A stretch of 64,000 bases of DNA from Pseudoalteromonas prydzensis. GTDB taxonomy: Bacteria; Pseudomonadota; Gammaproteobacteria; Enterobacterales; Alteromonadaceae. Made by a program: the position numbers and the translations under genes. Shown here piece by piece: positions 1-63,073 of the stretch; positions within the stretch are counted from its first letter, which is position 1; each line of letters starts with the position of its first letter. The notes beneath the pieces are model-generated. The model was not told the DNA's origin. It saw only the letters and a program-made list of their open reading frames with translations, and did not search any database. The stretch lies in assembly GCF_011050055.1 (NCBI RefSeq), contig NZ_DRGM01000076.1, positions 1-64,000 of the forward strand, read 5' to 3'.

Positions 1-1
1 A

Positions 2-29317: not shown

Positions 29318-29334
29318 TGTAAACCCCCTTTACA
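29318..29334. repeat. Dyad copy 1: TGTAAA-CCCCC-TTTACA
   Basis: Perfect 6-base arms around five C. It is one of five copies in the window (others at 38886, 40338, 47006, 63057). Confidence 0.9.
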
Positions 29335-29393
29335 GCAATAATGTAAGTAACTCCTTACATACTTAAACTAAATATCGGACTTTGTAAAAAATC

Positions 29394-29529
29394 GAGTTAG
29401 TAAAATTTCGGTTTATGACATTTTTGGGTCGCTAAGTTAGTAAAAAATCGGTTTGAGTCACTGTTTATGGCGTTTGAGTTGGTAAAAAAGTGGTTTACTG
29501 TGGTTTCGAGTTGGTAAAAAATCGGTTTA
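29394..29529 (+). repeat. Four degenerate 22-bp direct repeats
   Basis: Copies of GAGTTRGTAAAAAATCGGTTTA start at 29394, 29434, 29476 and 29508, each with one to five mismatches, separated by unrelated AT-rich spacers of 10-20 bases. Spacing is irregular (40, 42, 32), so it is not a CRISPR array. Confidence 0.8.
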
Positions 29530-29641
29530 TATTTTTACTGTAACGACCAATTACAGCTGTTTTTATCTGAAATCGCCCTTGCCAATCGCCAAAAAAGCGA
29601 TTTGATCGCAGTATTTGTTAAAAAATAGCAACCAAAAACTA

Positions 29642-29748
29642 AGCTGGTTAAATACTGATCCAAAAATTTAGACCAAAATAAGCAGCTAGTTAAATACTGA
29701 TCCAAACAATCATTGTGGAATTACCAGCTAGTTAAATAGTGATCTGAG
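29642..29748 (+). repeat. Three 23-bp direct repeats at exact 42-bp period
   Basis: Copies of AGCTRGTTAAATACTGATCCAAA start at 29642, 29684 and 29726. The first two differ at one position; the third is more diverged at its 3' end. Repeated sites of about this size at the end of a longer element recall transposase-binding sites of IS21-type ends, but no transposase remains nearby. Confidence 0.85.
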
Positions 29749-29810
29749 TGGGAAAGTTAGCAAGTTGGAAAGTGTAAAGCTGAATATCCTCTGTAGTTGC
29801 TAGCATCAAA

Positions 29811-29830
29811 AAAGGGCCTTGCGGCCCTTT
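29811..29830 (-). terminator. Intrinsic terminator of aceA
   Basis: AAAGGGCC / GGCCCTTT with loop TTGC; on the minus strand the stem is followed by a run of T. It lies 28 bases after the aceA stop. Confidence 0.85.
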
Positions 29831-29857
29831 GTAACATTGTTGAGTTGGACTGTTATG

Positions 29858-31459
29858 TTAGAACTGGTTCATAGTATTTGCTTCACCGCCGGCTTTAAGG
29901 GCATTGTCACCTGAGAAATACTCTTTGTGTGTATCACCGATGTTAGAACCCGCTAAGTCTTGGTGCTTCACAGAAGCTTGCTCACGACGAATTTCTTGAC
30001 GTTGCACATCACGTACGTAAGCCAGCATGCCTAAGTCACCAAAGTAGCCTTCAGATAGAATATCAGTACTTAACGCGGCTGTATGGTACGTTGGTAAAGT
30101 AATTAAATGATGGAAAATCCCTGCTTCACGTGCGCCATCGCGTTGGAAGTTTTGTACTAACACATCGGCGGCTTGTGCCAATTCAGTATTATCCATTTCA
30201 GGTGCCATCAGTGCCTTATTATCATCAATGCTTGGGTAAGCTGATAAATCTTTACCTTCATCAAGCCACTGTTGATAAACCTGCTCACGGAATTTAAGTG
30301 TCCAGTTAAATGATGGTGAATTGTTGTAAACCAGTTTCGCGTCTGGTACTTGCTGTTTAACACGATTTACCAATTCAGCGATTTGCTTAACGTGTGGTTT
30401 TTCAGTTTCAATCCACAGTAAATCAGCGCCTGACTGCAAGCTGGTCACACAATCAAGTACCACACGGTCCTTCTCTGTGCCTTCGCGGAATTGATAAAGG
30501 CCGTTATCAAGGCGGGTTGGTTTACACAATTGGCCGTTAAGCTTCATTGCCGTGTCGCCTTCGTTTAAGTCCTCTACGCCGTTAATCGGTGTGGTTTCTA
30601 AAAACGCATTGTATTGGCTCGCAAGATCGCCAGGTGTTTGCGATACCGGCACTTTTTGGGTCAAACTTGCACCCAGTGAATCAGTGCGCGCTACGATAAT
30701 GCCGTTATCAATGCCAAGCTCTAAAAATGCATAACGTACCGCATTAATTTTTGCTAAAAAGTCTTCATGCGGTACCGTAACTTTACCTGCTTGGTGACCA
30801 CATTGTTTTGCATCTGACACTTGGTTTTCGATTTGAATGGCACATGCGCCGGCTTCAATCATCTTTTTAGCCAGTAAATAGGTTGCTTCTTCATTACCAA
30901 AACCGGCATCAATATCGGCAATAATTGGCACTACATGACTTTCAAAGTTATCAATTTTATCAAGTACTGCTTGCACATCACCGCCGTTCGCTTTGGCGTT
31001 ATCTAAGTCTTTAAATAAATGGTCCAGTTCGCGGGCATCAGCTTGTTTTAGGAAAGTATAAATTTCTTCAATAAGTGCTGGCACAGAGGTTTTCTCATGC
31101 ATACTTTGATCAGGTAGAGGACCAAACTCAGAGCGCAGTGCCGCGACCATCCAACCACTTAAATATACGTAACTACGCTTGGTGGTCTTTTGGTGACGCT
31201 TAATCGCCATCATCATTTGTTGCGCAGTAAAACCATGCCAGCAGCCTAAAGATTGCGTGTATTGACTGGTATCAGCATCGTATGCCGCCATATCTTCACG
31301 CATAATATCTGCCGTAAATTGTGCGATATCTAGCCCGGTACGAAAGCGATTTTGTAAACGCATACGACTGGCGTACTCAGGGTTAATAGCTTGCCATGGT
31401 TTACCTTGTGCTTGACAAAGAGTTGCTAACGAATCGGTTTCACGTTGATAAGTAGTCAT
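29858..31459 (-). CDS. aceA: Isocitrate lyase
   Basis: Splits isocitrate to glyoxylate and succinate, the first step of the glyoxylate shunt, in the cytoplasm. 533 residues, the length of the larger gammaproteobacterial subfamily (as in Pseudomonas aeruginosa) rather than the 434-residue E. coli form. The active-site segment reads DAKQCGHQAGK (KQCGH in place of the E. coli KKCGH, typical of this subfamily), with PIIADIDAGFGNEEATYLL and IIVARTDSLGA also present. AAAGGA precedes the ATG. It is divergent from malate synthase G over a 258-base spacer, which suggests shared regulation by acetate or fatty acid supply. Confidence 0.97.
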   Translation of the reverse strand: MTTYQRETDSLATLCQAQGKPWQAINPEYASRMRLQNRFRTGLDIAQFTADIMREDMAAYDADTSQYTQSLGCWHGFTAQQMMMAIKRHQKTTKRSYVYLSGWMVAALRSEFGPLPDQSMHEKTSVPALIEEIYTFLKQADARELDHLFKDLDNAKANGGDVQAVLDKIDNFESHVVPIIADIDAGFGNEEATYLLAKKMIEAGACAIQIENQVSDAKQCGHQAGKVTVPHEDFLAKINAVRYAFLELGIDNGIIVARTDSLGASLTQKVPVSQTPGDLASQYNAFLETTPINGVEDLNEGDTAMKLNGQLCKPTRLDNGLYQFREGTEKDRVVLDCVTSLQSGADLLWIETEKPHVKQIAELVNRVKQQVPDAKLVYNNSPSFNWTLKFREQVYQQWLDEGKDLSAYPSIDDNKALMAPEMDNTELAQAADVLVQNFQRDGAREAGIFHHLITLPTYHTAALSTDILSEGYFGDLGMLAYVRDVQRQEIRREQASVKHQDLAGSNIGDTHKEYFSGDNALKAGGEANTMNQF

Positions 31460-31515
31460 AATAAAAATCCTTTGAACGGGTTAAAACAAAATTAATATTG
31501 CTGGTTGTGAGAGAG

Positions 31516-31539
31516 GCTAATGAGTATCAGCTCGTTAGC
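31516..31539. promoter_or_regulatory. Imperfect dyad between aceA and glcB
   Basis: GCTAATGAG-N6-CTCGTTAGC, arms complementary at 8 of 9 positions, about 57 bases upstream of aceA within the divergent promoter region. It is a candidate binding site for a glyoxylate-shunt regulator; no regulator is identified. Confidence 0.4.
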
Positions 31540-31717
31540 GCTTAACTCAACATTAGGCTGATTTTTCAGATTTAGTAAATTTATAGTTGTTATGCTGGCT
31601 ATATACTTTATGAATGGCCAAAACCACACGAGCGGTCGTTTTTGAGTTATGGTTACAGCACGACAATCTACAATCGTCATTTAATTAACACCGCGACCGT
31701 TTAAAAGGATACCGATT

Positions 31718-33895
31718 ATGACCACCTCTCACAGCCAGTTTGGGTTAACTGTAAATAACCAATTAGCCGACTTTATTAACCAACAACTGCTACCTGGCAC
31801 CGGCATTAGCGAACAGCATTTTTGGCAAGGGTTTGCTGATATTATTGATGATTTAAGCCCCATCAACCGCCAACTACTTATTAAACGTGAAGATCTACAA
31901 CATCAGATTGATAGCTACCATGTTGCACACACCCACTGGGATGCTGCGCATTATCAACAGTTTTTAACTGATATTGGCTATTTAGTTGCTGAGCCAGAAG
32001 ATTTTTGCATTGAAACCGATAATGTAGAGCCTGAAATAGCACACACCGCAGGCCCGCAGCTCGTTGTGCCAGTAAGCAATGCACGCTTTGCTCTTAATGC
32101 TGCAAACGCTCGCTGGGGCTCGTTATACGATGCTTTATACGGCACTGATGTGTTAAGTGAAGAGGATGGAGCCGAAAAAGGCAGCACTTATAATCCTGTT
32201 CGCGGCTTTAAAGTAATGGCCTATGCAAGGCAGTTTTTAGATAAAGCCATCCCCCTTGAAAATGGCTCACATATCGAAAGCACTAATTATTCGGTAGTGA
32301 ATGGACAGCTTTTTATCACCTTACGTGATAGCTCACAAACTGGGTTAAAACAACCAACACAACTTGTTGGTTTTCAAGGTGAAGCACAAAATCCAACGGC
32401 TATTTTACTGCTCAGTCACGGCTTACACATTGAGCTACAAATTGACCACAATCACCCAATTGGTAACGCCGATAAAGCCGGTTTAAAAGACGTGGTGCTA
32501 GAAGCCGCATTAACAACCATAATGGACTGTGAAGACTCCGTTGCCGCCGTTGACGGCGAAGATAAAGTGCAGGTTTACCAAAACTGGCTTGGTTTAATGA
32601 AAGGCACGCTGGTTGAATCATTCACTAAAGAAGGTAAAACCATTGAGCGTACACTGGCGCCAGATCGCAACTACAGCGGGGTTAATGGCCAACCGTTGAC
32701 TTTAAAAGGCCGCAGTATGATGTTCATCCGTAATGTTGGTCACTTGATGACTAATCCTGCAATACAAGATAGCCAAGGTCGGGATGTATTTGAAGGCATT
32801 ATGGATGCGGTGATCACAGCCACTGCAGCGCTGCATGACTTACAAGGTAATAGCCCAGTTAAAAACTCCAGCGCAGCCAGTATCAATATTGTAAAACCCA
32901 AAATGCATGGCCCGGAAGAAGTCGCCTTTACAAACACTCTATTTAGCCGCGTTGAGCAGTTACTACAGCTTCCTGCAAACACCGTGAAAATGGGTATTAT
33001 GGATGAAGAGCGCCGCACTTCTGTCAACCTTAAAGCCTGTATCGCAGCAGCAAAAGAGCGCGTTGTATTTATTAACACTGGCTTTTTAGATCGCACAGGG
33101 GATGAAATTCATACTTCAATGCAAGCCGGTGTGGTACTACCAAAAGCAGCAATTAAACAACAACCTTGGATAGCCGCGTATGAAGATCGTAATGTTGATA
33201 TCGGCTTGCAAACCGGCTTAAGTGGCCGCGCGCAAATCGGTAAAGGTATGTGGCCAATGCCTGATAAAATGGCATTAATGATGGAACAAAAAATTGCCCA
33301 TCCGCAATCTGGCGCAAACACCGCCTGGGTGCCCTCCCCGACTGCTGCTACGTTACATGCTATGCACTACCATGATGTTGATGTATTTGCCTGCCAAAAA
33401 GCCATCTCTGAACGTCAACAAGCCAGTTTAACGCAGCTACTCACCCCACCTTTGATGGTCGATCCGAATAGTTTAACTAAAGAAGACATTCAGGCCGAGC
33501 TTGATAACAATGCACAAGGTATTTTAGGTTACGTGGTGCGCTGGATTGACCAAGGCGTTGGCTGCTCTAAAGTACCTGATATTAACCACATAGGCTTGAT
33601 GGAAGATAGAGCAACCTTGCGTATATCAAGTCAACATATGGCTAACTGGTTGCACCACGGAGTGTGTACACAAGCGCAAATAGAAAACACCATGGCCAAA
33701 ATGGCTAAAGTGGTCGATGGTCAAAATGAAGGCGATGCGAGGTATAACAATATGGCTGACTCAGCCCAGAGTTTATCACAAAATATTGCTTATCAAGCCG
33801 CCCTAGCCCTTGTGTTAGAAGGGGTGAAGCAACCCAGTGGTTATACTGAACCATTATTGCATGCGTTTCGTATAAAGTTTAAAGCGCAACAATAA
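31718..33895 (+). CDS. glcB: Malate synthase G
   Basis: Condenses glyoxylate with acetyl-CoA to malate, the second step of the glyoxylate shunt. 725 residues, the monomeric G type. Motifs: [33 protein letters not shown] with active-site Arg, [34 protein letters not shown] (magnesium and substrate residues) and [21 protein letters not shown] precedes the ATG. A strong terminator follows. It is divergent from aceA, so both shunt enzymes are made from one promoter region; no aceK or glc regulator is in the window. Confidence 0.97.
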
Positions 33896-33924
33896 CTCTC
33901 CTTCGAGTTTGTTAGTGTCATATT

Positions 33925-33949
33925 GCCAGCCCTCGGGCTGGCTTTTTTA
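33925..33949 (+). terminator. Intrinsic terminator of glcB
   Basis: GCCAGCC / GGCTGGC with loop CTCG followed by six T. Confidence 0.9.
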
Positions 33950-33998
33950 TTACCTATTCATAACTACAATGAATGGCTAACATTCAGCAACCAACAAA

Positions 33999-34024
33999 AA
34001 AGCGCATTAAAAATAATGCGCTTT
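33999..34024 (-). terminator. Intrinsic terminator of the YebC-like gene
   Basis: AAAGCGCATTA / TAATGCGCTTT stem with a short A loop; on the minus strand it runs into a T-rich tract. Confidence 0.75.
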
Positions 34025-34061
34025 CAAAACAACGGCGTAATCTTACGCAAGATTTATCCTA

Positions 34062-34086
34062 GCTAACTTTACTCTCGCTAGCTTTA
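34062..34086. repeat. Dispersed copy of the GCTAACTTTACTCTCGCTA repeat
   Basis: Nearly identical to 29279-29301 in the repeat island. It ends one base before the stop codon of the YebC-like gene. Confidence 0.8.
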
Positions 34087-34087
34087 C

Positions 34088-34813
34088 TTAACTAACAACC
34101 GTTGCATTGTGATAAACATGTTGTACGTCATCACAATCTTCAAGCATAGTTATAAACTTTTCAAAATTAGCGATGTCGTCCGGATCAGTGATATCGACAT
34201 GGACTTGCGGTACGAAGGTAATTTCGTCAACTTCAAAGTTAATATCTGCAAATGCATCTTCTAGCGCGGTTTTTGCTTTGTAATATTCAGTATGAGGGGC
34301 AAATACAGATACTTTACCGTCTTCCACTTCAACGTCAGTAACATCAACATCAGCCATCATCAGCGCTTCAAGCACCACTTCATCATCATCCCCCGAAAAA
34401 CCAAGCACAGCTAAGTGATCAAACATATGGGCTACACAGCCTGGCGTGCCTATTTTAGAGTCTGTTTTAGTGAACGGTAAGCGAACATCTTTGATAGTAC
34501 GATTTGGGTTATCTGTTAAACAGTCAACTATCACCATGCAATTACCAGGGCCATAACCTTCATAGCGTGCTGTTGAATAGTCTTCCCCGGCACCACCTGC
34601 TGCTTTTTCTATCGCTTTTTCGATTACATGCGCAGGAACTTGATCTCGCTTGGCACGTTCGATTAAACGTTTCAGAGATTGGTTTACTTCTGGATCAGGT
34701 TCACCATTTCTTGCCGCAACGTAAATTTCTTTGCCGTATTTAGAATTAACTTTGGTCTTCGCATTGGCTGTTTTTGCCATGGCGTTTTTACGGACTTCAA
34801 ATGCTCTGCCCAT
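34088..34813 (-). CDS. yeeN: YebC/PmpR-family protein, YeeN-like paralogue
   Basis: A 241-residue member of the TACO1/YebC family. The N-terminus [19 protein letters not shown] and the segment [35 protein letters not shown] resemble E. coli YeeN more than YebC. Later family landmarks are [18 protein letters not shown] and [11 protein letters not shown]. Members have been described both as DNA-binding regulators and as factors that help ribosomes through difficult stretches such as polyproline; which applies here is open. No ruvC/ruvA genes lie beside it, unlike the canonical yebC locus, which supports the paralogue reading. Single gene. Confidence 0.9.
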
Positions 34814-34991
34814 CTTATGCCTCTATTGGAAACTCGATATTGCCGCCATTTTAACAATTCACGCAGTTTTCAGCTAGTGATTAAATGGCTACAAGATTAC
34901 GATTAGATATTTAATTTTTTATGGCTTGGTATTAATAAAAATAAAACAACATGCTATTTAACATAATAATAAAAATTCGTTAAACAGTGGA

Positions 34992-35618
34992 CTATGAGAT
35001 CCGAGATTGTTGCTGTTTTTCACTTAATTGATTTATTAACCCAGGTAATTCAGAAAAGTGCTTTACAATGTAATCGGCTTGATTGGCATACGCAGGAATA
35101 TCGCTCGGTGCATATAAGCAGGCTCGCATATTAGCATTATGTGCGGCTTGGATATCATAAAGGTAGTCGCCTACATAAAGTATATGCTGTTGCTCCATTC
35201 CCCATAATGTTGCAATTGCATTTAAGGCACTAGGATCAGGTTTTGCTGGTGCATCACTGCGAGTGAGTACAGTCTGGATAGGCAATGGGTTTTTTTTTAA
35301 TTTAAGTGCAGCTGCGCGGTCATAATTACGCGTTACGATTGCCATCGGTAGCGCTTGATCTTTTAACCGTGCAATAGCCTGCGCTACACCAGGTAGAAGA
35401 ACGGCGTGTTGAGCATCTATAAGCTCGTGCTGGTGAACAATATTCATTGCTTCTTCACGCATATAGGGCGAAGGCAGCTGGGCTATAAAACTAAGTAAAT
35501 CGAGCTCTGCTGGGCAACCAATTTGTGCCTTTATCAGGGTGAAATCTAACTCCGATGACATAAGCGTGCCATCTAAATCAAAAATGACCCCAGTGACCAT
35601 GCTCTGATGCATATTCAT
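34992..35618 (-). CDS. HAD-family hydrolase (phosphoglycolate-phosphatase-like)
   Basis: A 208-residue cytoplasmic phosphatase of the HAD superfamily, subfamily IA. Motif I is VIFDLDGTL (nucleophile and acid Asp), motif II lies in MAIVTRNYDR, motif III lysine in DAPAKPDP, and motif IV in ILYVGDYLYDIQAA. The small helical cap between motifs I and II fits phosphoglycolate phosphatase-like enzymes. The substrate cannot be assigned. Single gene. Confidence 0.9.
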   Translation of the reverse strand: MNMHQSMVTGVIFDLDGTLMSSELDFTLIKAQIGCPAELDLLSFIAQLPSPYMREEAMNIVHQHELIDAQHAVLLPGVAQAIARLKDQALPMAIVTRNYDRAAALKLKKNPLPIQTVLTRSDAPAKPDPSALNAIATLWGMEQQHILYVGDYLYDIQAAHNANMRACLYAPSDIPAYANQADYIVKHFSELPGLINQLSEKQQQSRIS

Positions 35619-35736
35619 ATCATTCCTTGTATATTACTTCATTTTCATCCGCATAACTTAACTCCCTATAAGATAGTTTAACTAATTGGATATGAAAAGA
35701 AACATATTAATATTTAATATAAAAAATTAATAAAAA

Positions 35737-35761
35737 ACGCGCACAAAACTACTGTGCGCGT
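35737..35761 (-). terminator. Intrinsic terminator of the M1/DUF6702 operon
   Basis: ACGCGCACA / TGTGCGCGT with a 7-base loop, followed on the minus strand by six T. Confidence 0.85.
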
Positions 35762-35785
35762 CGGTTGGGGGACTATTAAATTTGC

Positions 35786-38745: not shown

Positions 38746-39204
38746 AATTAATCCTGTTAAATTTTCGTGATCTTACTGTGTCAAAATGGCCTGAGTTATT
38801 CAATAAAATAGCGATAAACCGCCGCTTTTATAGGGTAAAAAATGACATATTTGAAAATACAGATTAATTCTACTCGTAAACACCTTGTAAAGGGGGTTTA
38901 CAGTAGCCAATGTATTTTGTCGAAGTAATAGCAGCCTGCGACAAAAAGGGCGCTTGCAATCACTTTCCAAAACAAAATTTAAAACGTAAAACTGGCTTGC
39001 TTTATGCAGTAGTTTGATGGTTATACCCATAACTTTGGGCCCAATTTCGGCTATTTTTAGATTAATCGCTAAATAGCGAATTCTTTAGTTGACCTTTATG
39101 GTCATTTGTATTTAAAATCGCCCACTTTTTTAATTTGAGGGGTTTAAAAGCATGGCTTTTCCTTTCAAATATGTTTCAACATACAAGTAAAATGCGGTGG
39201 GCAT
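38746..39204. other. 459-base intergenic region with dyad copy 2
   Basis: Holds the M1 promoter. A perfect TGTAAA-GGGGG-TTTACA dyad lies at 38886-38902 and a small hairpin TCGCTA-AA-TAGCGA at 39065-39078. A 76-codon minus-strand frame here (39030-38800) lacks coding character. No RNA gene was recognised. Confidence 0.5.
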
Positions 39205-39444: not shown

Positions 39445-39519
39445 AGATTGCTACTATGCCCTTGCATCTTATTTTAGCTTGGGTATATTGACGCTCTTAA
39501 CTGATTTTAAGAGCGTGAC

Positions 39520-40761
39520 ATGAAAGTCTTACACACCTCAGATTGGCATCTTGGCCAACAATTTTATGAACATCACCGTGCAGATGAACACCAGCAGTTT
39601 TTTAGCTGGTTGATCGACACGCTCGTCAGTGAAAAAATCAATTTACTGTTAGTTGCAGGTGATATTTATCACACAGCCACACCGCCTGCTAGCAGTGAAA
39701 ATCAACTTTATCAGTTCATCAAAAATGTTAAAAAGCGCTGCCCAACATTACAGATAGTGATTATTGCAGGTAACCATGACTCTGCAAATCGGATCATGAC
39801 CGCAAAACCTTTACTGGCACAGTTTGATACTCACGTAGTAGGGCGTTTTGATGTAAATAACCCTGATGATGTTGTGATCCGCTTAAATACCGACTCAGTG
39901 AACGCTCATATCGTCGCTATGCCATTTTTACGCGCCAGTGACGTTACCACCTTAAGTAATACTGAAAACGGTCATGATTACGCTCAGGGTATTGCTAAAG
40001 CGTATCAACTTAGTAGTGATTGCGCACTCAAAGATAAACCCGCCTCGACACCTTTGATCATCATGGGCCACTTGCATGCTAAAGGTGGCGATATTTCCAG
40101 TGATTCAGAGCGTAATTTAATTATTGGCGGTGAAGAATCGGTCACTGCACAGATCTTTAGTAGCCAGGCAAACTACGTGGCACTTGGGCATTTACATAAA
40201 GCACAGCAAGTCGCAAAGTCTGACACTATCCGCTATAGCGGCACACCGATGCCGATGTCGTTCTCTGAGCGTAACTATAAGCATCAAGTATGCGTTGTTG
40301 AATTCACAGCCACTACCAACAATCATATTGAGGTTACTGTAAACCCCCTTTACATTCCCCGTGCAACTGAGGTTATGCTGTTGCCTGAAGGAGAATGTGT
40401 GCCCCTCGAACAATTATGCGAACAAATAGCGAATTTGGATCTAAGCCGTTACAGCCAAGCGCCGTATTTAAGAGTAAAGCTCAGTGCTGGAGATACCGAT
40501 ACCACCTTTAGAGAACAAATAGAAAAAGCACTGGAAAATAAAGCGGTGAATTTTTGTGGTATAGAACGAGTACGGCAAATAAATAAACAGCAAAACAGCG
40601 CTGTGTTTGAAGATTTAAGCCAAGTCGAAATGCTCAACCCACAAACATTATTAGAGCAAGCGTTCGCAAATAATAAAGACATGGCAGGGCAAAGCGTACC
40701 CGATGCACTAAAAACACTTTTAAACGAGGTGATAAGTGAACTGGCGGAGCAACAACTATGA
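39520..40761 (+). CDS. sbcD: SbcCD nuclease subunit SbcD
   Basis: Mn-dependent nuclease subunit (Mre11 homologue) of the SbcCD complex that cleaves hairpins and protein-blocked DNA ends. 413 residues. Phosphoesterase motifs in order: TSDWHLGQ (Asp8, His10), VAGDIYHTATPP, IIAGNHDSANR, MGHLHAKG and VALGHLHKAQ. The C-terminal SbcD domain follows. The stop overlaps the sbcC start by four bases (ATGA). A copy of the TGTAAA-N5-TTTACA dyad is embedded in the coding sequence at 40338-40354, encoding VNPLY. Confidence 0.96.
   Translation: MKVLHTSDWHLGQQFYEHHRADEHQQFFSWLIDTLVSEKINLLLVAGDIYHTATPPASSENQLYQFIKNVKKRCPTLQIVIIAGNHDSANRIMTAKPLLAQFDTHVVGRFDVNNPDDVVIRLNTDSVNAHIVAMPFLRASDVTTLSNTENGHDYAQGIAKAYQLSSDCALKDKPASTPLIIMGHLHAKGGDISSDSERNLIIGGEESVTAQIFSSQANYVALGHLHKAQQVAKSDTIRYSGTPMPMSFSERNYKHQVCVVEFTATTNNHIEVTVNPLYIPRATEVMLLPEGECVPLEQLCEQIANLDLSRYSQAPYLRVKLSAGDTDTTFREQIEKALENKAVNFCGIERVRQINKQQNSAVFEDLSQVEMLNPQTLLEQAFANNKDMAGQSVPDALKTLLNEVISELAEQQL
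40338..40354. repeat. Dyad copy 3, inside sbcD
   Basis: TGTAAACCCCCTTTACA, identical to copy 1, here read as coding sequence near the start of the SbcD C-terminal domain. Confidence 0.9.
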
Positions 40762-45894: not shown

Positions 45895-47325
45895 CTATCT
45901 TTCATCCGTTTTCAATTGTTTTGCTCGTTCTTCAGCAGCGATCAGTTTGGCTGATTTAGGCATTGTTTTTTTCGGCGCTATAGTCGGCTTTTCGGTTGAG
46001 TTTGGATCCCAGCTTGGATCCAGCGATAAGTTCGCAAATGGGTTCGCTTTTTGCTCACTCGACTGTGACTCAGCAGGCTCTGCACACTCATTATTATGGA
46101 GTGCTTGCTCTTGCTGTTCGGCGGCAAGCTCTTGATTAAGCGCTGCAAGTGCTTTCGCAATATCATCATTGCTGTCAGCCGCCGTAGGCTCAGTACTTTC
46201 AAAGTCTTGGCTGCATGAATCATCAAGCAGCTCAACTGCCACCGTGCTGTTAAATATTTGCTCTGAGCCATCTTCATCATTTTCAAGCTCTGTGCCTTCA
46301 GGCTGCTTTGTAGCAACGATTTCAGCGTCTTCATCTGCTGCAAACAGCATGGTATCAATACTGCTTTCATCGACGTTAACAGCCGTTGAAGTGAATGCTG
46401 TTGCAGTGTCAGCAGCAAGCTTAGTTTTGTTAGTTATGGTTGCGTTAGTAATGGTTTCATTGCTTCGTTGCTTTTCAAGCGCTGCACTAGGTTGTTGGCC
46501 AGGTAATGGCGCATCAGGATCAAAAGTACGCACTTCAGGCTCTTTGAAGTCGTGCTCATTACTAAAAATGCGTTGCGTTAGTTTATTTTGGTTTGGTATA
46601 GCTGATTTATTTGGCTGTTCCTCAGCGGTGCTGACGAGCGGGGCAGCTATGTTTGTGTTATTTTCGACTGTTGCAGGTGCTGAATTTTTCTTCGCACGTA
46701 AACGCAGCAATAGCAATCCAGCTAATAACAATACGGCTAATAACAATAAACTTGGCATTAACAATGAACCCGTATCAGCATCGCCACTACTAGCATCAGT
46801 ATTCATAGCCGTAACTGGCGGTAAGGCAATAACAGGGGCTGCATTTAGCCGCTCAGCTTGCTCATTAATAGCCTCATCGCTAAATTCTGCCGCTGGTGTT
46901 GCAACTTCACGCGCTGCTATCGCAGCGTCTGGCACAGCTGCTGATACGGTTTCGCTTGGCGTTGTTTGATTTAACTTTGCTTGTGATGTGCTTGCCTCTG
47001 CGCTGCTGTCAAGGGGGTTTACAGCCGTACTCGGTTGCTCAGTAGCCAAGGTGTTGCTGTCTTCTGCTTGCTTAGTAACTGGCTCCGGCATTGTGCTTTT
47101 TGGTGCTGTGATCTGTGGTTGCGACTGTTCAACTGGCGGCGGATTACTACAGTTTTTATCGTAATCTCTGGCCGCATTACGATAACTGCGACTGCTGGTG
47201 TTATCACTGTATTGCTGCATCTGTTGTTTGTACAAAATGCACATAGCTTCGCTGTATTTTGCAAAGCTATTAAAACTGCAAGTAAGTATAATAAAAAGGC
47301 CAAGCCGTGATAAGTAAGTGAGCAT
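45895..47325 (-). CDS. Unrecognised acidic membrane protein with signal peptide
   Basis: A 476-residue protein with no family I can name. I use ATG 47325, which starts a signal peptide (YLSRLGLFIILTCSFNSFA); a TTG 15 bases upstream is possible. Order: signal 1-22; short Cys-containing segment (MCILYKQQMQQY, YDKNCSNPPP); a Ser/Thr/Ala/Pro-rich linker; one membrane helix about 188-208 (LLMPSLLLLAVLLLAGLLLL) with basic LRAKK after it; and a long acidic low-complexity cytoplasmic tail with many Glu/Asp/Ala. This layout loosely recalls FimV-type and TM-anchor scaffold proteins, but no LysM or TPR was seen. A dyad copy lies in the gene at 47006. Confidence 0.7.
   Translation of the reverse strand: MLTYLSRLGLFIILTCSFNSFAKYSEAMCILYKQQMQQYSDNTSSRSYRNAARDYDKNCSNPPPVEQSQPQITAPKSTMPEPVTKQAEDSNTLATEQPSTAVNPLDSSAEASTSQAKLNQTTPSETVSAAVPDAAIAAREVATPAAEFSDEAINEQAERLNAAPVIALPPVTAMNTDASSGDADTGSLLMPSLLLLAVLLLAGLLLLRLRAKKNSAPATVENNTNIAAPLVSTAEEQPNKSAIPNQNKLTQRIFSNEHDFKEPEVRTFDPDAPLPGQQPSAALEKQRSNETITNATITNKTKLAADTATAFTSTAVNVDESSIDTMLFAADEDAEIVATKQPEGTELENDEDGSEQIFNSTVAVELLDDSCSQDFESTEPTAADSNDDIAKALAALNQELAAEQQEQALHNNECAEPAESQSSEQKANPFANLSLDPSWDPNSTEKPTIAPKKTMPKSAKLIAAEERAKQLKTDER
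47006..47022. repeat. Dyad copy 4, inside the acidic membrane protein gene
   Basis: TGTCAAGGGGGTTTACA, one mismatch from copy 2. Read on the minus strand it encodes AVNPLDS, giving the same VNPL residues as the copy in sbcD. Confidence 0.75.
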
Positions 47326-47399
47326 AATTCTATTAAGCAAAATAACACAATACTCTCAGTTTAATTGTACTGCGCAAATTTATCTAGCTGTGAATTTCA

Positions 47400-51102: not shown

Positions 51103-51159
51103 CTTATTTCCTTGTTAGTTGTGTTTTATTGGCTTATAAAAATTACGCGTGATGAATTT

Positions 51160-51861: not shown

Positions 51862-51881
51862 TTGTTTCTCTTCCAGATCCA

Positions 51882-55323: not shown

Positions 55324-55365
55324 TAGTCAGTTCAACTTAGTTTAATCAATAGACAAAATAGCCGC

Positions 55366-55899: not shown

Positions 55900-55950
55900 G
55901 TACTTACCTCAAACCACAGCCGTTATTAGCAACGGCTGTGGCATTTTCAA

Positions 55951-57258
55951 TTAATCGTCAAGTCGACATGCTGTAACTTGATCCTCTGCAACCCATTGGC
56001 ATTCAAGTTCAACATACTGATCAAGGTATTGATCGAGTGAGTTATCCTCACTTACATAACCCCATAAGCTAGCTTGCATGTTTTGATCTGCACTGACAAA
56101 ACCAGTTAGATTAAGCGGCTCATTGCCATCCATTAGCTCAACTTCGCTAACGGTTTGTTTATCATCGGCGATAATACCCTCAAGTTCAAGCCATCGGCCC
56201 TCTATGTTATTTAACGTTAAGCCATCATCAAATACGGTTTGGTTATTGAGCATAAATTCAATACCATTGATTGTCGCAACGCTCTGTGTGTAAGTCACTA
56301 ACCCTGTAACTGAAAAAGCGCTGTTGCTGTTCACAACATCATTTGCTGATCCAAACTCAATCTCTTGCGCTACAAACCTGTTATTTGCTTGCTGCCATAG
56401 GGCATCAATCTCAACAAACCGTCCAATCGCTAGATCAGCTACCGTTCCATCATCATAACGCGTTTGCGCATTTAAACTGACTTGCCATTGCCCATTAATA
56501 GTCATTAAGGTTGAATCATTGTTTAGCCACGTAATTTGCCCCGCTAACTGGCTATCCGTGTCATCATCAAAACTACTGTGTTGCTTGGCATCAACTTCGT
56601 TTGCCAACAACTGTTGGCCATTCATAAACCCTTCAACTTCAACGAATTGTCCATTAACAAGAGGCCCATCCACATCTGCTTGTTGATAATTAACCATAAT
56701 ATTCCCTAACGAGAATGTCCTTTGTTGGGTATTAAGTGCAGAGATTACCCCTTCGACTTCAAGCTCAGTTTGGGGATCACTGATTGGCTGCTGGTAGGTC
56801 ACTGTTAACCTGTTGTAAGCACTGTTATAACCACTTACTTCAACTAAATCACCATCCTTTATCGTGCTGCTATCAAATCCTGTTAATCTCACACCAGCAA
56901 TATTAATAACGTTACCTTGAACCTGCACTGGGCCTTTAAAATTAGGATCGTAATCAATTTCCGTCGCGTGGCTGCCATTGGTTTCTACTGCAACCATCAT
57001 GCCTTTTTTCAAGTCACTCAATGAGCCATCTACACCATCAATCTCCACCTCGGCATTACTTGCCGGGATCTCATGCTGATTTACTGTAATTGTTGTTGCT
57101 GTAGTTGCGGTTAGCTCACCAATTAGTACGCTTGGTAACTGTGCTGTAGGCGTAGTAAGCTCATTGCTCTGTGAATTACTACTGCCACAAGCAGTTAATG
57201 CGAGTGTCAGTGCTGATAATGAAATAATCTGAGTGATTGTTTTGTGCTGGCTGTGCAT
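55951..57258 (-). CDS. DUF5666-repeat lipoprotein
   Basis: A 435-residue lipoprotein; start ATG 57258 with GGAG six bases upstream (a frame to 57306 is longer but has no such site). Lipobox LTAC, Cys24. The mature part is a string of small beta-barrel-like DUF5666 units of 60-70 residues, each with a pattern such as GxVxxV...G..VEVEG: for example EIDGVDGSLSDLKKGMMVAVE, ELEVEGVISALNTQQ, GQFVEVEGFMNGQ, GRFVEIDALW and GRWLELEGIIAD. Metal or ligand binding is not known. First gene of the PepSY/two-component group. Confidence 0.88.
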   Translation of the reverse strand: MHSQHKTITQIISLSALTLALTACGSSNSQSNELTTPTAQLPSVLIGELTATTATTITVNQHEIPASNAEVEIDGVDGSLSDLKKGMMVAVETNGSHATEIDYDPNFKGPVQVQGNVINIAGVRLTGFDSSTIKDGDLVEVSGYNSAYNRLTVTYQQPISDPQTELEVEGVISALNTQQRTFSLGNIMVNYQQADVDGPLVNGQFVEVEGFMNGQQLLANEVDAKQHSSFDDDTDSQLAGQITWLNNDSTLMTINGQWQVSLNAQTRYDDGTVADLAIGRFVEIDALWQQANNRFVAQEIEFGSANDVVNSNSAFSVTGLVTYTQSVATINGIEFMLNNQTVFDDGLTLNNIEGRWLELEGIIADDKQTVSEVELMDGNEPLNLTGFVSADQNMQASLWGYVSEDNSLDQYLDQYVELECQWVAEDQVTACRLDD

Positions 57259-57467
57259 AATTAACTCCAAATTTAGTCGGCTGAATAAGCTGTTTATGCC
57301 AAGCACTATAACCGGCCATAAATATCAGCAAGGTGGAGAGAACATTAAATTTTGTTAATGTTTACTTAAGCGAGTAATACCTTAGTCAAAAATAGCTTAC
57401 TGCGACTAGCATCACTGCAATATTTATGTATAACTAGAGCGATAAGACTTATCGCTTTAGGAATTCC

Positions 57468-58625
57468 ATGCAACTTTCAAATCAGCTATTAAATCGCTTA
57501 ACCGCAGGCTTAGTCGCTGTGATCATTGGTTTTACCAGCTCAATCGCTCTTATTTATCAAGTCGTTATTGTACTCGGTGGCACTGCTGACTTAGTTGCCA
57601 GCTGGGTACTGATGTTAGGGCTTGCGATGGGAGTTACCTCAATTGGTTTATCGTATTATTATAAAATTCCTATTTTAATTGCATGGTCAACAACCGGCGC
57701 CGCTTTACTGATCACCAGTGCCCAAGGCTATAGTTTAAACCAAGCGGTGGGCGCATTTATGTTTAGCGCCTTATTAGTGTTTATTTCCGGTATTACTGGC
57801 TGGTTTGCAAAAATAATGGAGCATATTCCCAGCCAAATTGCCTGCGCTATGCTAGCGGGTGTGCTGGTGACATTTGGCATTGATGTATTTAACTTTATGA
57901 GTGAAAAACCGTTACTCATAGGGGTTATGGTATTGGTCTATTTGATCTGTAAACGACTCATGCCACGTTTTACTATGCTCATGGTGCTAATTGCAGGCTT
58001 TGTGATGGCAGGCGTCACAGGGCAAATTGATACCAGCAACTGGCAATGGAAAATGAGTGAGTTTGCGTTTATTAGCCCTGAATTTAATTTACAAGCAATG
58101 ATTAGCGTGGGTATTCCGCTTTATATTGTCACTATGACCTCACAGAACTTACCCGGTATTGCGGTGTTAAAAGCCCATAATTACCCAGCCCCCGTTTCTG
58201 CGGCGCTCAACGTGACCAGCCTTACTAATATTTTGATCGCCCCTTTTGGTGGTTACGCCATTAATTTAGCAGCCATTACCGCAGCAATTTGCATGAGCGA
58301 AGACGCTGACAGCGATCCTAACAAACGCTACTGGGCAAGTATTGCAGGCGGTGGTTTTTATATTTTGATGGCCATTGCAGCAGCGACGTTAGTAGGGTTA
58401 GTCGCAAGTCTACCGCAAGCGCTAATTTTAGCTCTCGCTGGTATAGCCTTATTTACCACCATTGCATCGAGCTTACAGCAAGCGTTGTCAGACAGTTATT
58501 ATACGGAAGCGGCGATGATCACCTTTTTAGTGACGGCTTCTGATCTTACTCTGTTCTCTGTTGGCTCTGCATTTTGGGGCATACTTGCAGGCGGGCTGAC
58601 TTTATGGCTGATCCCACGAAAATAA
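57468..58625 (+). CDS. benE: BenE-family benzoate/proton symporter
   Basis: A 385-residue inner-membrane transporter with about twelve hydrophobic helices. Family features: GFTSSIALIYQVVIVLGG near the N-terminus, IAWSTTGAALLITSAQGYS, IPSQIACAMLAGVLV, VTMTSQNLPGIAVLKAHNYPAP and GGYAINLAAITAAICMSEDAD. No benzoate catabolic genes are close, so the real substrate may be another aromatic acid or unrelated. AGGA precedes the ATG. Single gene with a hairpin downstream. Confidence 0.92.
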   Translation: MQLSNQLLNRLTAGLVAVIIGFTSSIALIYQVVIVLGGTADLVASWVLMLGLAMGVTSIGLSYYYKIPILIAWSTTGAALLITSAQGYSLNQAVGAFMFSALLVFISGITGWFAKIMEHIPSQIACAMLAGVLVTFGIDVFNFMSEKPLLIGVMVLVYLICKRLMPRFTMLMVLIAGFVMAGVTGQIDTSNWQWKMSEFAFISPEFNLQAMISVGIPLYIVTMTSQNLPGIAVLKAHNYPAPVSAALNVTSLTNILIAPFGGYAINLAAITAAICMSEDADSDPNKRYWASIAGGGFYILMAIAAATLVGLVASLPQALILALAGIALFTTIASSLQQALSDSYYTEAAMITFLVTASDLTLFSVGSAFWGILAGGLTLWLIPRK

Positions 58626-58735
58626 CACCCGTAATAAACCAGCTTGCGCATCGTTGAGTAGCCATTGTGCTAATTAGTGTTTATAAACTCACGCCCACAG
58701 TGATCATTATTTAAACACACTTAGTATAACAAGAT

Positions 58736-58778
58736 AATAACCGCCCTAGTGCATAAGGAACTGACTAAGGCGGTTATT
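58736..58778. terminator. Terminator between convergent benE and DUF2955 genes
   Basis: Perfect 10-bp arms AATAACCGCC / GGCGGTTATT, extended inward by a CTAG/CTAA mismatch-containing part, with a large loop. It sits seven bases after the DUF2955 stop and serves both directions. Confidence 0.65.
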
Positions 58779-58784
58779 ATTCAA

Positions 58785-59822
58785 CTATTCAAAAGTATGG
58801 TGACGCGTCACACTAAACCGATTAAGAATATGGTGCATAATATACACCGCACATAAGCTAACGATGATTGCCACAGAAACCGATGAAAATCGATACAGCG
58901 CACTGTAAATCAAGTCTTGCCCAGGCCCAAGTGACTGACCAAATAAAATTCCAAAGGTAGTTATGATACCAAAACCAACACCTGGGATCCCGCCGCCGAT
59001 AATATGATAACGGCTAAATATAAAGGTCAAAATCCACAATATCAGCGCTGGAAAAAGCAAAATATCAGTGTGGTTATATAAAAATAACTGCGACACCAAC
59101 GCTAAGTTACAGCCAATTAGAGTACCGATTGCTCGTTGCCAACCAGCCATACCAGCCGCCTTCCAACACAACGGAAACAAAATTAAAATCGAGGCTGCTT
59201 GCGCTGATATTGAGTCTTGCAAATCAAACACCTGAAACAGTACAAATGACAGCGTCGCGACAGTTGCACATAACAGTACTTCATGGCGAATGCTCTCTTT
59301 TGCTTTAGTTGGCATTACGCGAGCTTGACGCGGGGCAACATCAGGAAACATAAAGTGCATTAATACCGCAGTCAGTACCGTGACTACAACCGCTAAACCA
59401 TTGCTTATAATTAGCGGATAAATACTGGTGCCATTGCCGACATAACTGGCAAAGTGCAATTGAATAGATAAACTCACCACACTCAAAGCACCAAATAAAA
59501 AGTTAGCTCCACGGCTCATTTGATAAAATAAAAACGTAAATGCTAAAAAGCTCAACATGGTCATAACCACAGGTAAATGTGAAAACAACCCTTGCACAAT
59601 CAACACAAATAATGCGCTAAATGCGGCACTGGCAAAAAACTGACGAATAATATGCGCATTTAAAATCGGCACTAAACCAAGTAACAACATAGGATAAACG
59701 GTAAAGAAAATCCCATTAGGCCAATTCATTAACTTACACAAACTAAAGCCTAGGGCACTGCCACCGGCGATACGAAGTGCTTGACGAAGGCCATTTTTAT
59801 CAAGGACATATGGTGCTGACAT
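58785..59822 (-). CDS. DUF2955 membrane protein (FUSC-like efflux component)
   Basis: A 345-residue inner-membrane protein with about ten helices in two sets, related to the DUF2955/FUSC-like group. Patterns seen: LRIAGGSALGFSLCKLMNWPNGIFFTVYPML at the N-terminus and GWQRAIGTLIGCNLALVSQLFL in the second half, where FUSC proteins carry the equivalent repeat. It pairs with the HlyD-type protein upstream by nine bases, a standard DUF2955-HlyD-MarR arrangement in Vibrio and Pseudoalteromonas. The likely role is export of small toxic organic acids. AGGGGA precedes the ATG. Confidence 0.88.
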   Translation of the reverse strand: MSAPYVLDKNGLRQALRIAGGSALGFSLCKLMNWPNGIFFTVYPMLLLGLVPILNAHIIRQFFASAAFSALFVLIVQGLFSHLPVVMTMLSFLAFTFLFYQMSRGANFLFGALSVVSLSIQLHFASYVGNGTSIYPLIISNGLAVVVTVLTAVLMHFMFPDVAPRQARVMPTKAKESIRHEVLLCATVATLSFVLFQVFDLQDSISAQAASILILFPLCWKAAGMAGWQRAIGTLIGCNLALVSQLFLYNHTDILLFPALILWILTFIFSRYHIIGGGIPGVGFGIITTFGILFGQSLGPGQDLIYSALYRFSSVSVAIIVSLCAVYIMHHILNRFSVTRHHTFE

Positions 59823-59831
59823 GACGTCCCC

Positions 59832-60893
59832 TTAATAAATAAAATGCAATAAGCTGATCAAACGAATTTGTGCACTGGCACACCATTGGCCTATTGTAGA
59901 TTCAGGTAATAATTGCACTGTTGCCCGCGCCCCACTTGGTAACTTACTGAGTAATTGCGGCTGTTCTAAATTAATATGAATACGTTGACGCTGCGCATCC
60001 CTCACCCAACGATTGCTATTTTCGGTGCTGCTAAGTAAACCATTCGCACTAAGTTGACCATCACTTACACCCGCTTCAAATGAGCCAATATTGGCGTCAA
60101 AAACCTGCCCAGGGAGTGCATCAAATGTGACTTTAGCTCGACTCCCTAAGGCAAAATTTGCCAATGATTTCTCACGAAAATCAGCCACTAAATCGGCTTT
60201 GTTTGCCACAATGGCTAACATTGGCTGGCCTTTACTAGCAAAGGTCCCCGTGCTCACTTGCAAGTTTGCTACTTTACCATCGGTATCTGCAGTCACTGTG
60301 CTGTACGATAAATTAAGCTCTGCTTGGGCCAATTGATTCCGCGCATGACGCAGCGCAAGGTTGTCATCTCCTAATTGACCTCGTGCTAATTTTGCCTCGG
60401 TTAATTGCGCCTCGATCGCCGCCACATTGGCTTTGCTCGATTGAAAATTAGCACTGATGGTTTCATATTCTTGCTCTGATATAGAGCGTTTTTTCAATAA
60501 GGATTCACTGCGATCAAATAACAATTTTTGCTCATGCAATTTGGCATTACCCGCAGCCAGCTGTGCTTCGATCGCCTTAACACTGCTATCTAAGCGCTGG
60601 TTTTGTAACTGCGCATCGGCAAAAGCCAGTTGTGCTTGCTCAACCGCTAATTGAAATGGTGCCGCTTCAATTAAAAATAATCTCTCGCCTTTGTTTACCG
60701 CTTGATTATTGTTCACCAACACTTGATTAACACGGCCACTAACTTGCGGCGTTACTTGTACAACCGGGTGATAAACTCGCGCTTGTGGCGTCACGGGTAA
60801 ATACATATCAGCCACTACAAAATAGGCAAATAATAAGATAAACCCAACTAATGATATTTTTACATAGCGGGCAAATTTTTGATCTGGTGTCAT
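59832..60893 (-). CDS. HlyD-family membrane fusion protein
   Basis: Periplasmic adaptor of an efflux pump, 353 residues. N-terminal membrane helix about 13-31 (ISLVGFILLFAYFVVADMY), a biotinyl-lipoyl-like half at VTPQVSGRVNQVLVNNNQAVNKG, a long coiled-coil hairpin about 78-190, the second lipoyl half AELNLSYSTVTADTDGKVAN, then a beta-barrel with ARVTFDALPG-like sequence. This is the EmrA type adaptor partnering an inner-membrane component; here that is the DUF2955 protein. It starts three bases after the MarR stop. Confidence 0.93.
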   Translation of the reverse strand: MTPDQKFARYVKISLVGFILLFAYFVVADMYLPVTPQARVYHPVVQVTPQVSGRVNQVLVNNNQAVNKGERLFLIEAAPFQLAVEQAQLAFADAQLQNQRLDSSVKAIEAQLAAGNAKLHEQKLLFDRSESLLKKRSISEQEYETISANFQSSKANVAAIEAQLTEAKLARGQLGDDNLALRHARNQLAQAELNLSYSTVTADTDGKVANLQVSTGTFASKGQPMLAIVANKADLVADFREKSLANFALGSRAKVTFDALPGQVFDANIGSFEAGVSDGQLSANGLLSSTENSNRWVRDAQRQRIHINLEQPQLLSKLPSGARATVQLLPESTIGQWCASAQIRLISLLHFIY

Positions 60894-60896
60894 TCT

Positions 60897-61373
60897 TTAT
60901 TTCTCTTGGCTTAAAAGTGTTAAACAACGGCGCGCATTCTCTTCCATTTGCACTAGTCCATAAGCCATCGTATCTAGTTGTGCTGTGGTTAGTCCTGCAT
61001 ACAGCTGTGTTTTCACTTCCGCCATTATGCCTCTAAGTGCTTCTAATAATTGTAGCCCTTGTTCAGTAAAATAAATTTTACGGCTGCGTTTATCTAGCTC
61101 ATCAACACGACGAACAATGATCGCTTGCTGCTCTAATTGCTTAACAGTGCGTGTTAATGAAGGCATTTCAATGCCGAGGCTAGTCGCGAGCGCTTGCTGT
61201 GTAACACCTTGCTGTAAATGATCAATATGGATCATCGCCGTCCAGCGAGATTGGGTTAACCCCAAAGGCTCAACAGCTAACGTGACGGCGTCACGACAGA
61301 GTCGAAAAACACGGCCCATGCTACCGCACAAGCTGAGATCGAGGGTTTCATGAAAAGGTAAGGGAATAGTCAT
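60897..61373 (-). CDS. MarR-family regulator of the efflux operon
   Basis: A 158-residue winged-helix repressor. The DNA-binding part reads LQQGVTQQALATSLGIEMPSLTRTVKQLEQQAIIVRRVDELDKRSRKIYFTEQG, the classical MarR wing with DxRSR. GGAG precedes the ATG 61373. It is the first gene of the operon with HlyD and DUF2955 genes (gaps 3 and 9 bases), and a perfect inverted repeat directly upstream is its probable operator, giving autoregulation. The inducer is unknown; for such operons it is usually a phenolic acid. Confidence 0.93.
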   Translation of the reverse strand: MTIPLPFHETLDLSLCGSMGRVFRLCRDAVTLAVEPLGLTQSRWTAMIHIDHLQQGVTQQALATSLGIEMPSLTRTVKQLEQQAIIVRRVDELDKRSRKIYFTEQGLQLLEALRGIMAEVKTQLYAGLTTAQLDTMAYGLVQMEENARRCLTLLSQEK

Positions 61374-61388
61374 GATGGCTCCATTTAA

Positions 61389-61426
61389 TTAGCGTGCTAA
61401 CCATTTTAAACTAGTTAGCACGCTAA
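61389..61426. promoter_or_regulatory. Probable MarR operator
   Basis: A perfect 13-bp inverted repeat TTAGCGTGCTAAC-N12-GTTAGCACGCTAA lies 16-53 bases before the marR-like start. Each arm is itself near-palindromic (TTAGC-GT-GCTAA), giving two MarR-dimer sites with centres 25 bp apart, on one face of the helix if 10.5 bp per turn is taken loosely. A TAAAAT -10 candidate lies between the arms. Confidence 0.85.
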
Positions 61427-61487
61427 GTAAATGTTGCCGTGGTACTTTAGCTTTAATAGCCAGCAAGCTGGCCATTAAGTAGCGAAT

Positions 61488-62372
61488 TTAAAAATTAAGT
61501 AGGTTAGCAGGAGAGTATTGATCAGTCAGAATTTTAGTGTCACTTGGCCAGTCTTGATTATTTTTGGTGGACTTCATGCCTTTACTAATCGCTTTAATAT
61601 CCACATCATAAGGGGACAATAACGGACGTAATTTTTTTACACGCTCTGCAATACTTTGCTCTGTTGGCATGTTATCAAAGCCTGCCAAAATAATGCGGTT
61701 ACTGTTTTTTTCAGTGATAACATTAATGAAGTCACCGAATACAGCATGGTAAGTTGCCGATTCATGTTCATACAGCTTACTTGATGAAAACGTATTAGCA
61801 GCCACAATACCATTAGGCGAGAGCACGCTTTTTACTTCCTCAAAAAACTCTTTCGTCAGTAAGTGCTCAGGGATGTAATCACCATTAAAGGCATCGAGAA
61901 TAATCCAATCATATTGCTGCTGCTTAAGTGCGGCGCGTTTTATAAAAATACGCCCATCTTGAACTTTTGAAGTCACTTTATCAGTTTCTTTAAAATCAAA
62001 ATAATCACGCGCGACCTTGATCACCGCAGGGTCTATTTCAACATTTTCAATGTTAGCAGCAGGGTATAGCTCATGGATCACATTTGATAAAGAGCCACCG
62101 CCAAGGCCTATAATCAGTACATTTTGCGGATTATCTATCATCAATAAACTGGCAAAGGTGAGCTTAGTATAGTTAAACACTAACTTTTGAGGCTTGCTTT
62201 TATACATGCAGCTTTGGCTACTGCTACGGGTTTTTTCGTCAAACTTTAAACAACGTAAATCACCGTTTTCTTCCACCAAAATATTACGATAAAGCGAACG
62301 CTCTTGGTGAATAACGTCAGCGTAAGCACTAAAAGCTGTTAACAATAAGGCAGCCATAACCCACTTAAACAT
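61488..62372 (-). CDS. Exported spermidine-synthase-like protein
   Basis: A 294-residue protein with a Rossmann-type spermidine synthase/methyltransferase fold: NVLIIGLGGGSLSNVIHELYP (nucleotide loop), NVEIDPAVIKVARDYFD, VQDGRIFIK and WIILDAFNGDYIPEHLLTKEFF. Residues 1-19 form a signal peptide (MFKWVMAALLLTAFSAYA) so the domain is predicted outside the cytoplasm, which is odd for an enzyme needing decarboxylated SAM. The start overlaps the upstream membrane gene by eight bases; AAGGAG precedes the ATG. In most genomes the two parts form one fused MFS/spermidine-synthase protein. Confidence 0.85.
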   Translation of the reverse strand: MFKWVMAALLLTAFSAYADVIHQERSLYRNILVEENGDLRCLKFDEKTRSSSQSCMYKSKPQKLVFNYTKLTFASLLMIDNPQNVLIIGLGGGSLSNVIHELYPAANIENVEIDPAVIKVARDYFDFKETDKVTSKVQDGRIFIKRAALKQQQYDWIILDAFNGDYIPEHLLTKEFFEEVKSVLSPNGIVAANTFSSSKLYEHESATYHAVFGDFINVITEKNSNRIILAGFDNMPTEQSIAERVKKLRPLLSPYDVDIKAISKGMKSTKNNQDWPSDTKILTDQYSPANLLNF

Positions 62373-62985
62373 GTTTACTCTCCTTGTTAGTTAATTGATT
62401 GACTGCAATCGCCAGCAAACCTAGGAACCCCAAGGTAGTGGCGAAGCCTAAAATAATGGTATTCACATCAAACGCGAGCACCATATAAAACGAGGTAATA
62501 ATAGTGCCGAGCGCACTGCCTAAGGTGCTGACAAAATATAAACCACCCGCAACTTGGCCGCTGTGTTCGCTATCGGTCACTAATAAACGCACTGAATAAG
62601 GAGAGATCATGCCAAGGATGATCGTTGGAATAAAAAATAACGCGGTAGAAGCTAGCAATGAGCCATAGCGGCTATCTTCAATGTGAGTAAAAATAAACGC
62701 CATTATCGGCTCTGCAAACAATGCAATGGGCACCACCATAACACTCGCCAATAAAAATATTAAGCCGTATTTAGTTAACGAAGGGCGTTTAATTGATAAC
62801 TTACCACCAAGCAGATAGCCAAACGATAAACTAAGCATAAACACCGTAATAATACTGCCCCAAATATGCACACTACTGCCAAAAAATGGCGCTAAAATTC
62901 GCCCACCTAACAGTTCAATACCCATGATACTAAAGCCGCTGCTAAAGGCTAAAAAATAAATTAATGCGTTGGTTTTATTTAACAT
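62365..62985 (-). CDS. Membrane half of a fused MFS/spermidine synthase type protein
   Basis: A 206-residue inner-membrane protein with six hydrophobic helices. It opens with LAFSSGFSIMGIELLGGRILAPFFGSSVHIWGS, the signature of the membrane half of fused MFS/spermidine synthases, and ends after the sixth helix with a short basic tail. It is translated together with the exported synthase-like protein by an eight-base overlap, so the two probably act together as the fused proteins do. Confidence 0.87.
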   Translation of the reverse strand: MLNKTNALIYFLAFSSGFSIMGIELLGGRILAPFFGSSVHIWGSIITVFMLSLSFGYLLGGKLSIKRPSLTKYGLIFLLASVMVVPIALFAEPIMAFIFTHIEDSRYGSLLASTALFFIPTIILGMISPYSVRLLVTDSEHSGQVAGGLYFVSTLGSALGTIITSFYMVLAFDVNTIILGFATTLGFLGLLAIAVNQLTNKESKHV

Positions 62986-63056
62986 TCATTTTAGTTCTTA
63001 TTATTTTAAGTAAACTCATCTTATCGTGATGAATAAAAACTGGCCAGCTTTTATAC

Positions 63057-63073
63057 TGTAAAGGGCGTTTACA
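63057..63073. repeat. Dyad copy 5: TGTAAA-GGGCG-TTTACA
   Basis: Perfect arms with a GGGCG centre instead of five G, in the intergenic space upstream of the MFS-like gene. Confidence 0.85.

Follow-up and report, generated by a model that had tools for sequence, protein, structure and literature searches.

The 64,000 nucleotides considered here (the window) open a 132-kb contig of Pseudoalteromonas prydzensis (NZ_DRGM01000076.1, here C76) and raise the question of why a 17-bp dyad, TGTAAA-N5-TTTACA, recurs there within and between unrelated genes. The contig belongs to the second chromosome, or chromid: the window matches 11 records of a plasmid collection, all of them Pseudoalteromonas replicons of 0.68–1.32 Mb, and replicons of this kind are termed chromids in passages of two published papers (PMC8496264; PMC7858055). 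Judging from sequence comparisons, it is very probable that the dyads are parS centromere sites of the Pseudoalteromonas chromid, presumably bound by its partition protein ParB2. This assignment rests on the sequence of the sites, their distribution, their link to the parA2 and parB2 genes (parAB2), their conservation at the DNA level and the family of ParB2.

An earlier note on the window had listed five copies, all in its right half. Four of them are exact and one is near-exact, lying at 47007–47023 rather than at 47006–47022, and a sixth, weak copy is found at 21240; the copy at 29318 falls to the left of the window midpoint. The weak copy (21240–21256, minus strand; TGTAAAGGGGGTTGCCA on the G-rich strand) has two mismatches, scores 18.8 bits against the profile described below and lies 90.7 kb from parB2, which is encoded on the minus strand at 110963–111922, to the right of the window. 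It is followed by an exact site between open reading frames (ORFs) at 29318–29334 (minus strand, 82.6 kb from parB2). The dyad search also located an exact site between ORFs upstream of sbcD (38886–38902, plus strand) and another within sbcD (gene at 39520–40761, plus strand; site at 40338–40354, minus strand), where it covers the codons GTA AAC CCC CTT TAC, and both this search and the profile recovered the one-mismatch site on the plus strand within the ORF at 45895–47340. The last copy, at 63057–63073 (plus strand, between ORFs, 48.9 kb from parB2), is an exact dyad and has the GGGCG centre ascribed to it. The five copies of the earlier note are 49–83 kb from parB2, and a dif-like site is present on the contig at 128888.

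Recurrence above chance, which the note had also claimed, holds for the strict dyad. TGTAAA ranks first among the arms of hexamer-N5-complement dyads in each of three sequences: it forms 4 of 37 in the window, 5 of 65 over the first 124 kb of C76 and 9 of 416 on a related chromid, the record NZ_CP142031.1 (W01). TGTAAA dyads at other spacings from 0 to 15 number just 0–2 copies. Twenty order-4 Markov versions of the W01 chromid held 0–2 copies versus the nine real ones, and none with an all-G/C centre versus eight of those nine. Genome-wide counting, proposed as a check, gave 10 exact copies in P. prydzensis versus one for a reversed control. With up to two mismatches allowed, the window count of 10 was not above that of shuffled sequences (mean 8.4; 35 of 100 shuffles reached 10), and significance is restricted to the strict form of the motif. 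A profile was built from 123 distinct sites (W01, C76 and Pseudoalteromonas stretches) chosen with at most one arm mismatch and a G- or C-rich centre; it reads TGTAAA-GGGG[G/C]-TTTACA, with flanks beyond the 17 bp almost devoid of information. This profile, partly trained on the two replicons concerned, finds ten positions of at least 18.8 bits in C76, where the next best score after the weak copy is 7.1, and eighteen of at least 18.4 bits in W01, where the next is 13.8. The strand of the G/C centre is roughly even in two record sets (68 forward and 67 reverse; 61 and 50).

The sites are nearly confined to the chromid and clustered beside parA2-parB2, in support of the chromosome-organising role that had been one option in the note. 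A genome scan for TGTAAAGGGGNTTTACA returned at least 115 stretches, with 74 from Pseudoalteromonas and 41 from scattered other organisms among the matches listed. As parB2 was found in all 11 chromid records and on C76, ParA and ParB are encoded on the replicon that bears the sites, and, as in a ParABS centromere, a single inverted repeat recurs several times near the origin and parAB. Copies differing from TGTAAAGGGGNTTTACA at no more than one position were placed by their distance from parB2, along its reading direction, in 19 chromid records, many of them closely related; G012 was omitted from this set, its contig C2 sharing length and site places with W11. In each of the 18 records besides G002, the 100 kb on the plus side of parB2 contain 3–12 sites and the 100 kb on the minus side are free of them. 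In 13 of these 18, dif2 lies at −16 to −17 kb from parB2; it lies at −139 to −414 kb in W04, W09, G028 and G017, and the search of the chromid records did not find it in W02. The GC skew of W01 is positive in all but three 20-kb bins, as expected of a single fork. The chromid of G002 (G002:C2, 20 pieces read) has a skew of the two-fork type, with dif2 opposite (819 kb) and 780 kb from parB2, and its sites occupy both flanks, 7 and 4 within 100 kb of parB2 and farther ones to −186 and +141 kb. The draft genome G016, which belongs to the same clade and has a similar ParB2, shows a skew that turns at parAB and has 4 and 5 sites per side, and G011 has 12 sites to one side, with no site in the opposite 99 kb. 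Passages of two papers describe most Pseudoalteromonas chromids as copied one-way, with two-way copying in a three-strain clade that includes P. spongiae (PMC8496264; PMC7858055). Site placement seems to follow the replication mode of the chromid.

Within sbcD, selection is, by the evidence of codon identity, acting on DNA rather than on protein. The exact 17-mer and all five of its codons are identical in 12 of 20 species, and these codons form the sole run of at least three identical codons in sbcD among the 12; elsewhere in the gene, the same species agree on the codon at 13 of 204 positions with an invariant amino acid. The other 11 species that retain the exact sbcD copy also have a dyad upstream of the gene. 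The shared VNPL residues of the two intragenic copies are present as described (TVNPLY in sbcD and AVNPLD in the ORF at 45895–47340). The note had taken them to suggest spread of a DNA element rather than protein constraint; DNA-level selection is borne out for sbcD, but spread is not, given a copy at the same codons in 12 species.

ParB2 was recognised as a plasmid ParB of the SopB type by PHROG and NCBIfam profiles (PRK13698, below cut-off); PADLOC gave no match, and a profile search of solved structures gave weak matches only. In a structure model of middling confidence (predicted local distance difference test 67, predicted template modelling score 0.45), the DNA-binding domain is closest to DNA-bound SopB, P1 ParB and VirB, and the N-terminal domain aligns, with lower scores, with cytidine triphosphate (CTP)-binding structures of ParB and Noc. 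A search of the P. prydzensis genome with TIGR00180 and PF02195, which are of the ParB_N type, found no match; the parB of the main chromosome is probably missing from this assembly (224 contigs, 8.6% contamination), and ParB2 itself appears too divergent for either profile. A tblastn search with ParB2 returned at least 5000 plasmid records, 4988 of those listed having less than 60% identity. At 1e-10, matches were obtained in 46 of 394 genomes of the order, 33 of them in one family (f21) that appears to be Vibrionaceae; identity to the f21 homologues is 28–36%, and one f21 genome (G055) has contigs of 3.26 and 1.69 Mb.

Dyads near ParB homologues were sought in 16 regions of 10–40 kb. All five f21 regions hold 3–5 TTTACA-N-TGTAAA dyads and the G046 region holds one; tandem TGGGAC-N4-GTCCCA arrays lie beside parB in G243 and G147, and three copies of AGTAAACANTGTTTACT flank parAB on both sides in G203. 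Shorter loci (2.5–3.8 kb) around 26 ParB homologues contained neither the dyad of the window nor that of f21. Several members of the ParB2 family thus have dyads of their own beside parAB, some sharing the TGTAAA hexamers.

The f21 dyads agree with the consensus of the Vibrio parS2 sites, TTTACA-N-TGTAAA, and with what is published on those of V. cholerae. As in that system, the sites of the window would be partition sites of a second chromosome with TGTAAA as half-site, and the ParB proteins would be homologous if f21 comprises relatives of Vibrio. Published passages on V. cholerae give 10 parS2 copies, mostly near ori2 (PMC3141006), and TGTAAA as the half-site (PMC3688505). The Pseudoalteromonas sites differ in their G/C-run centre and in the one-sided array of most chromids. 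The Vibrio-type TTTACA-N-TGTAAA dyad has one copy in the whole W01 chromid and none in the first 124 kb of C76; the single W01 copy (TTTACAATGTAAA, at NZ_CP142031.1 509817) has a perfect site 236 bases away, at 510053. F plasmid SopB is the closest in the fold of the DNA-binding domain and shares the protein family (PRK13698, below its cut-off). The sopC centromere is a tandem array, unlike the dispersed chromid sites; no tandem dyad array was found beside parB2.

If the dyads are parS, ParB2, a SopB/ParB-type protein encoded with ParA2 by ori2, would bind TGTAAA-GGGG[G/C]-TTTACA; the binding form is probably a dimer, each half-site taking one helix-turn-helix. By analogy with its family, it would be loaded at each site as a CTP-dependent clamp; once copied, the loaded region would be pulled apart by the ParA2 ATPase. 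In most chromids, 7–12 sites would extend over 50–100 kb on the flank of ori2 that replicates early, and a single fork would soon reach such a one-sided array; in a bidirectionally copied chromid, the sites would lie on both sides of ori2.

Several observations weigh against this assignment. ParB2 scores below the NCBIfam cut-offs and reaches no Pfam cut-off, and 7 of the 16 homologue regions lack a telling repeated dyad. The half-site order is reversed relative to Vibrio parS2 (TGTAAA-N5-TTTACA here versus TTTACA-N-TGTAAA in f21), and the two DNA-binding domains may accordingly sit in a changed register. The site-picking rule accounts in part for the G/C centre of the profile; independently of that rule, all 10 exact N5 dyads of the P. 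prydzensis genome have at least three consecutive G or C at the centre. The sbcD site is changed by one base in 4 of the 20 species (G009, G011, G014 and G024) and lost in another 4 (G004, G013, G018 and G023). Outlying sites occur 116–534 kb from parB2 in all 18 records besides G002, single-mismatch copies of G002 lie at 488 and 778 kb, the latter 39 kb from dif2, and one near-match is present on the main chromosome in 3 of 9 genomes. Of 41 loci, 38 lack an exact dyad within 1.5 kb of parB2, and no site was found in W01 or C76 upstream of parA2, where an autoregulatory parS often lies.

These last two absences would be accounted for if the sites served some other protein of the chromid origin domain, such as an SMC loader, a nucleoid protein or a replication-control factor, and were merely near parAB2; distribution alone cannot name the binder. 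We regard this as unlikely, since ParB2 homologues elsewhere have the same hexamers or the GTAAA-N5-TTTAC spacing beside parAB, and the ori2 repeats of W01 and C76 differ in sequence (CTGATC). RepA-type repeats were likewise set aside: those present in ori2 of W01 and C76, and in the stretch that follows parB2, are TGATC repeats, which are another sequence; at least two such short repeats follow parB2 in 27 of 41 loci and none in 14. That the dyads are transcription-regulator sites, an option of the note, is less probable still. Ten of the 15 profile sites of the W01 array avoid the listed genes (the list is perhaps incomplete), although 86% of the stretch is coding, as regulator sites might; however, the other five are wholly intragenic, the genes in or beside which sites lie are unrelated, and the array tracks parAB2 and the replication mode.

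Dispersed short dyads that mark one domain of a replicon are also known from matS, the site of MatP, and the chromid sites resemble them in this respect. A terminus marker of that type would be compatible with the closeness of the two domains where dif2 is just 16–17 kb from parB2, and with the G002 copy near dif2. By placement, the sites are on the ori2 and parAB2 side rather than around dif (MatP was not searched), and the distribution relative to origin and terminus, another check proposed in the note, speaks against a terminus role: in G002, dif2 lies opposite while parB2 has 11 sites within 100 kb, and on this layout and that of G016 such a marker was rejected, with a negligible probability left to it. 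Tus/ter sites were rejected, with no search for ter, because the dyads are palindromic, occur in both orientations and lie toward the origin. Hardly any credence is due to a mobile or uptake-type repeat, suggested in the note along with a genome-wide repeat. Several near-identical copies do occur within one region, but just 17 bp are conserved, without flanks, genome-wide abundance is low, almost all copies sit on one replicon, most of them in a single domain, the strands are about even, and the sbcD copy keeps the same codons in 12 species.

Some other features of these replicons were recorded alongside the sites. The near-matches on main chromosomes (L291, L292 and L269 of G012, G025 and G002, respectively) are all 19–30 kb from dif1; the G012 and G025 copies are homologous, unlike that of G002, and no rule emerged among the nine genomes. 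A single TGTAAAGGGGCTTTACA lies 192–229 kb upstream of parB2, far from the array, in seven chromids (at 218165 of NZ_CP142031.1 and at corresponding positions of W03, W08, G008, G020, G021 and G022). A 174–180 bp tandem array of about 3–5 units near parB2 (C76 106.8–107.3 kb; NZ_CP142031.1 452.1–453.0 kb, between a helicase gene and rmuC) was considered as a rival centromere and rejected, as it reads as repeated small transcription units. These units have promoter-like and terminator-like ends (by eye, one fold) and resemble repeated small-RNA genes; the W01 array had no Rfam match at the gathering cut-off, and the first 12 kb of G002:C2 contained no array of this type. The two ends of the circular record NZ_CP142031.1 (positions 1–14752 and 777313–792064) are identical along about 14,750 bases, an overlap that was probably left untrimmed.

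The array also bears on the polarity of FtsK-orienting polar sequences (KOPS), for which the motif GGGNAGGG was taken from a passage of a published paper (PMC13342612); in the five one-sided chromids, 7–26 motifs were found per region, with W03 and G008 read in part. KOPS between dif2 and a point inside the array point back through parAB toward dif2, and those beyond that point are oriented oppositely. Relative to parB2, the turn lies at +52 to 67 kb in W01, +75 to 79 kb in C76, +66 to 70 kb in W03, +54 to 68 kb in G008 and +16 to 21 kb in G011; the exceptions are one KOPS on the dif2 side in C76 and one in G011, and one past the turn in G011. Six KOPS of G002, which was also read in part, turn at +28 to 31 kb, and five of G016 are all leftward, with no turn among them. 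Between dif2 and parB2, GC skew in the five one-sided chromids is slightly negative; from 0 to +50 kb it becomes weakly positive. KOPS polarity beside ori2 seems to oppose the direction of copying, the small numbers making this a strong lead rather than proof. It is conceivable, though we lean slightly against it, that the segregation origin is separate from the replication origin: the parS array rather than ori2 would be the point from which KOPS diverge toward dif2, so that KOPS over 20–75 kb by ori2 would run against replication, and new parS sites would have arisen on the newly acquired arm when one clade turned bidirectional.

The published passages on Pseudoalteromonas chromids that were consulted name no centromere sequence. 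New here are the one-sided placement, the reversed half-sites and a turn of KOPS polarity within the array rather than at the origin. Sites of the parS type were reportedly surveyed by Livny et al. in 2007, and an earlier mention of the sequence in that survey is possible. With a named centromere sequence, chromid segregation could be put to direct test. Chromids copied in one or in both directions have a partition system in common in this genus, a natural experiment on whether arrays and KOPS follow replication or segregation, and the reversal of the half-sites relative to Vibrio poses the question of how ParB recognition evolves.
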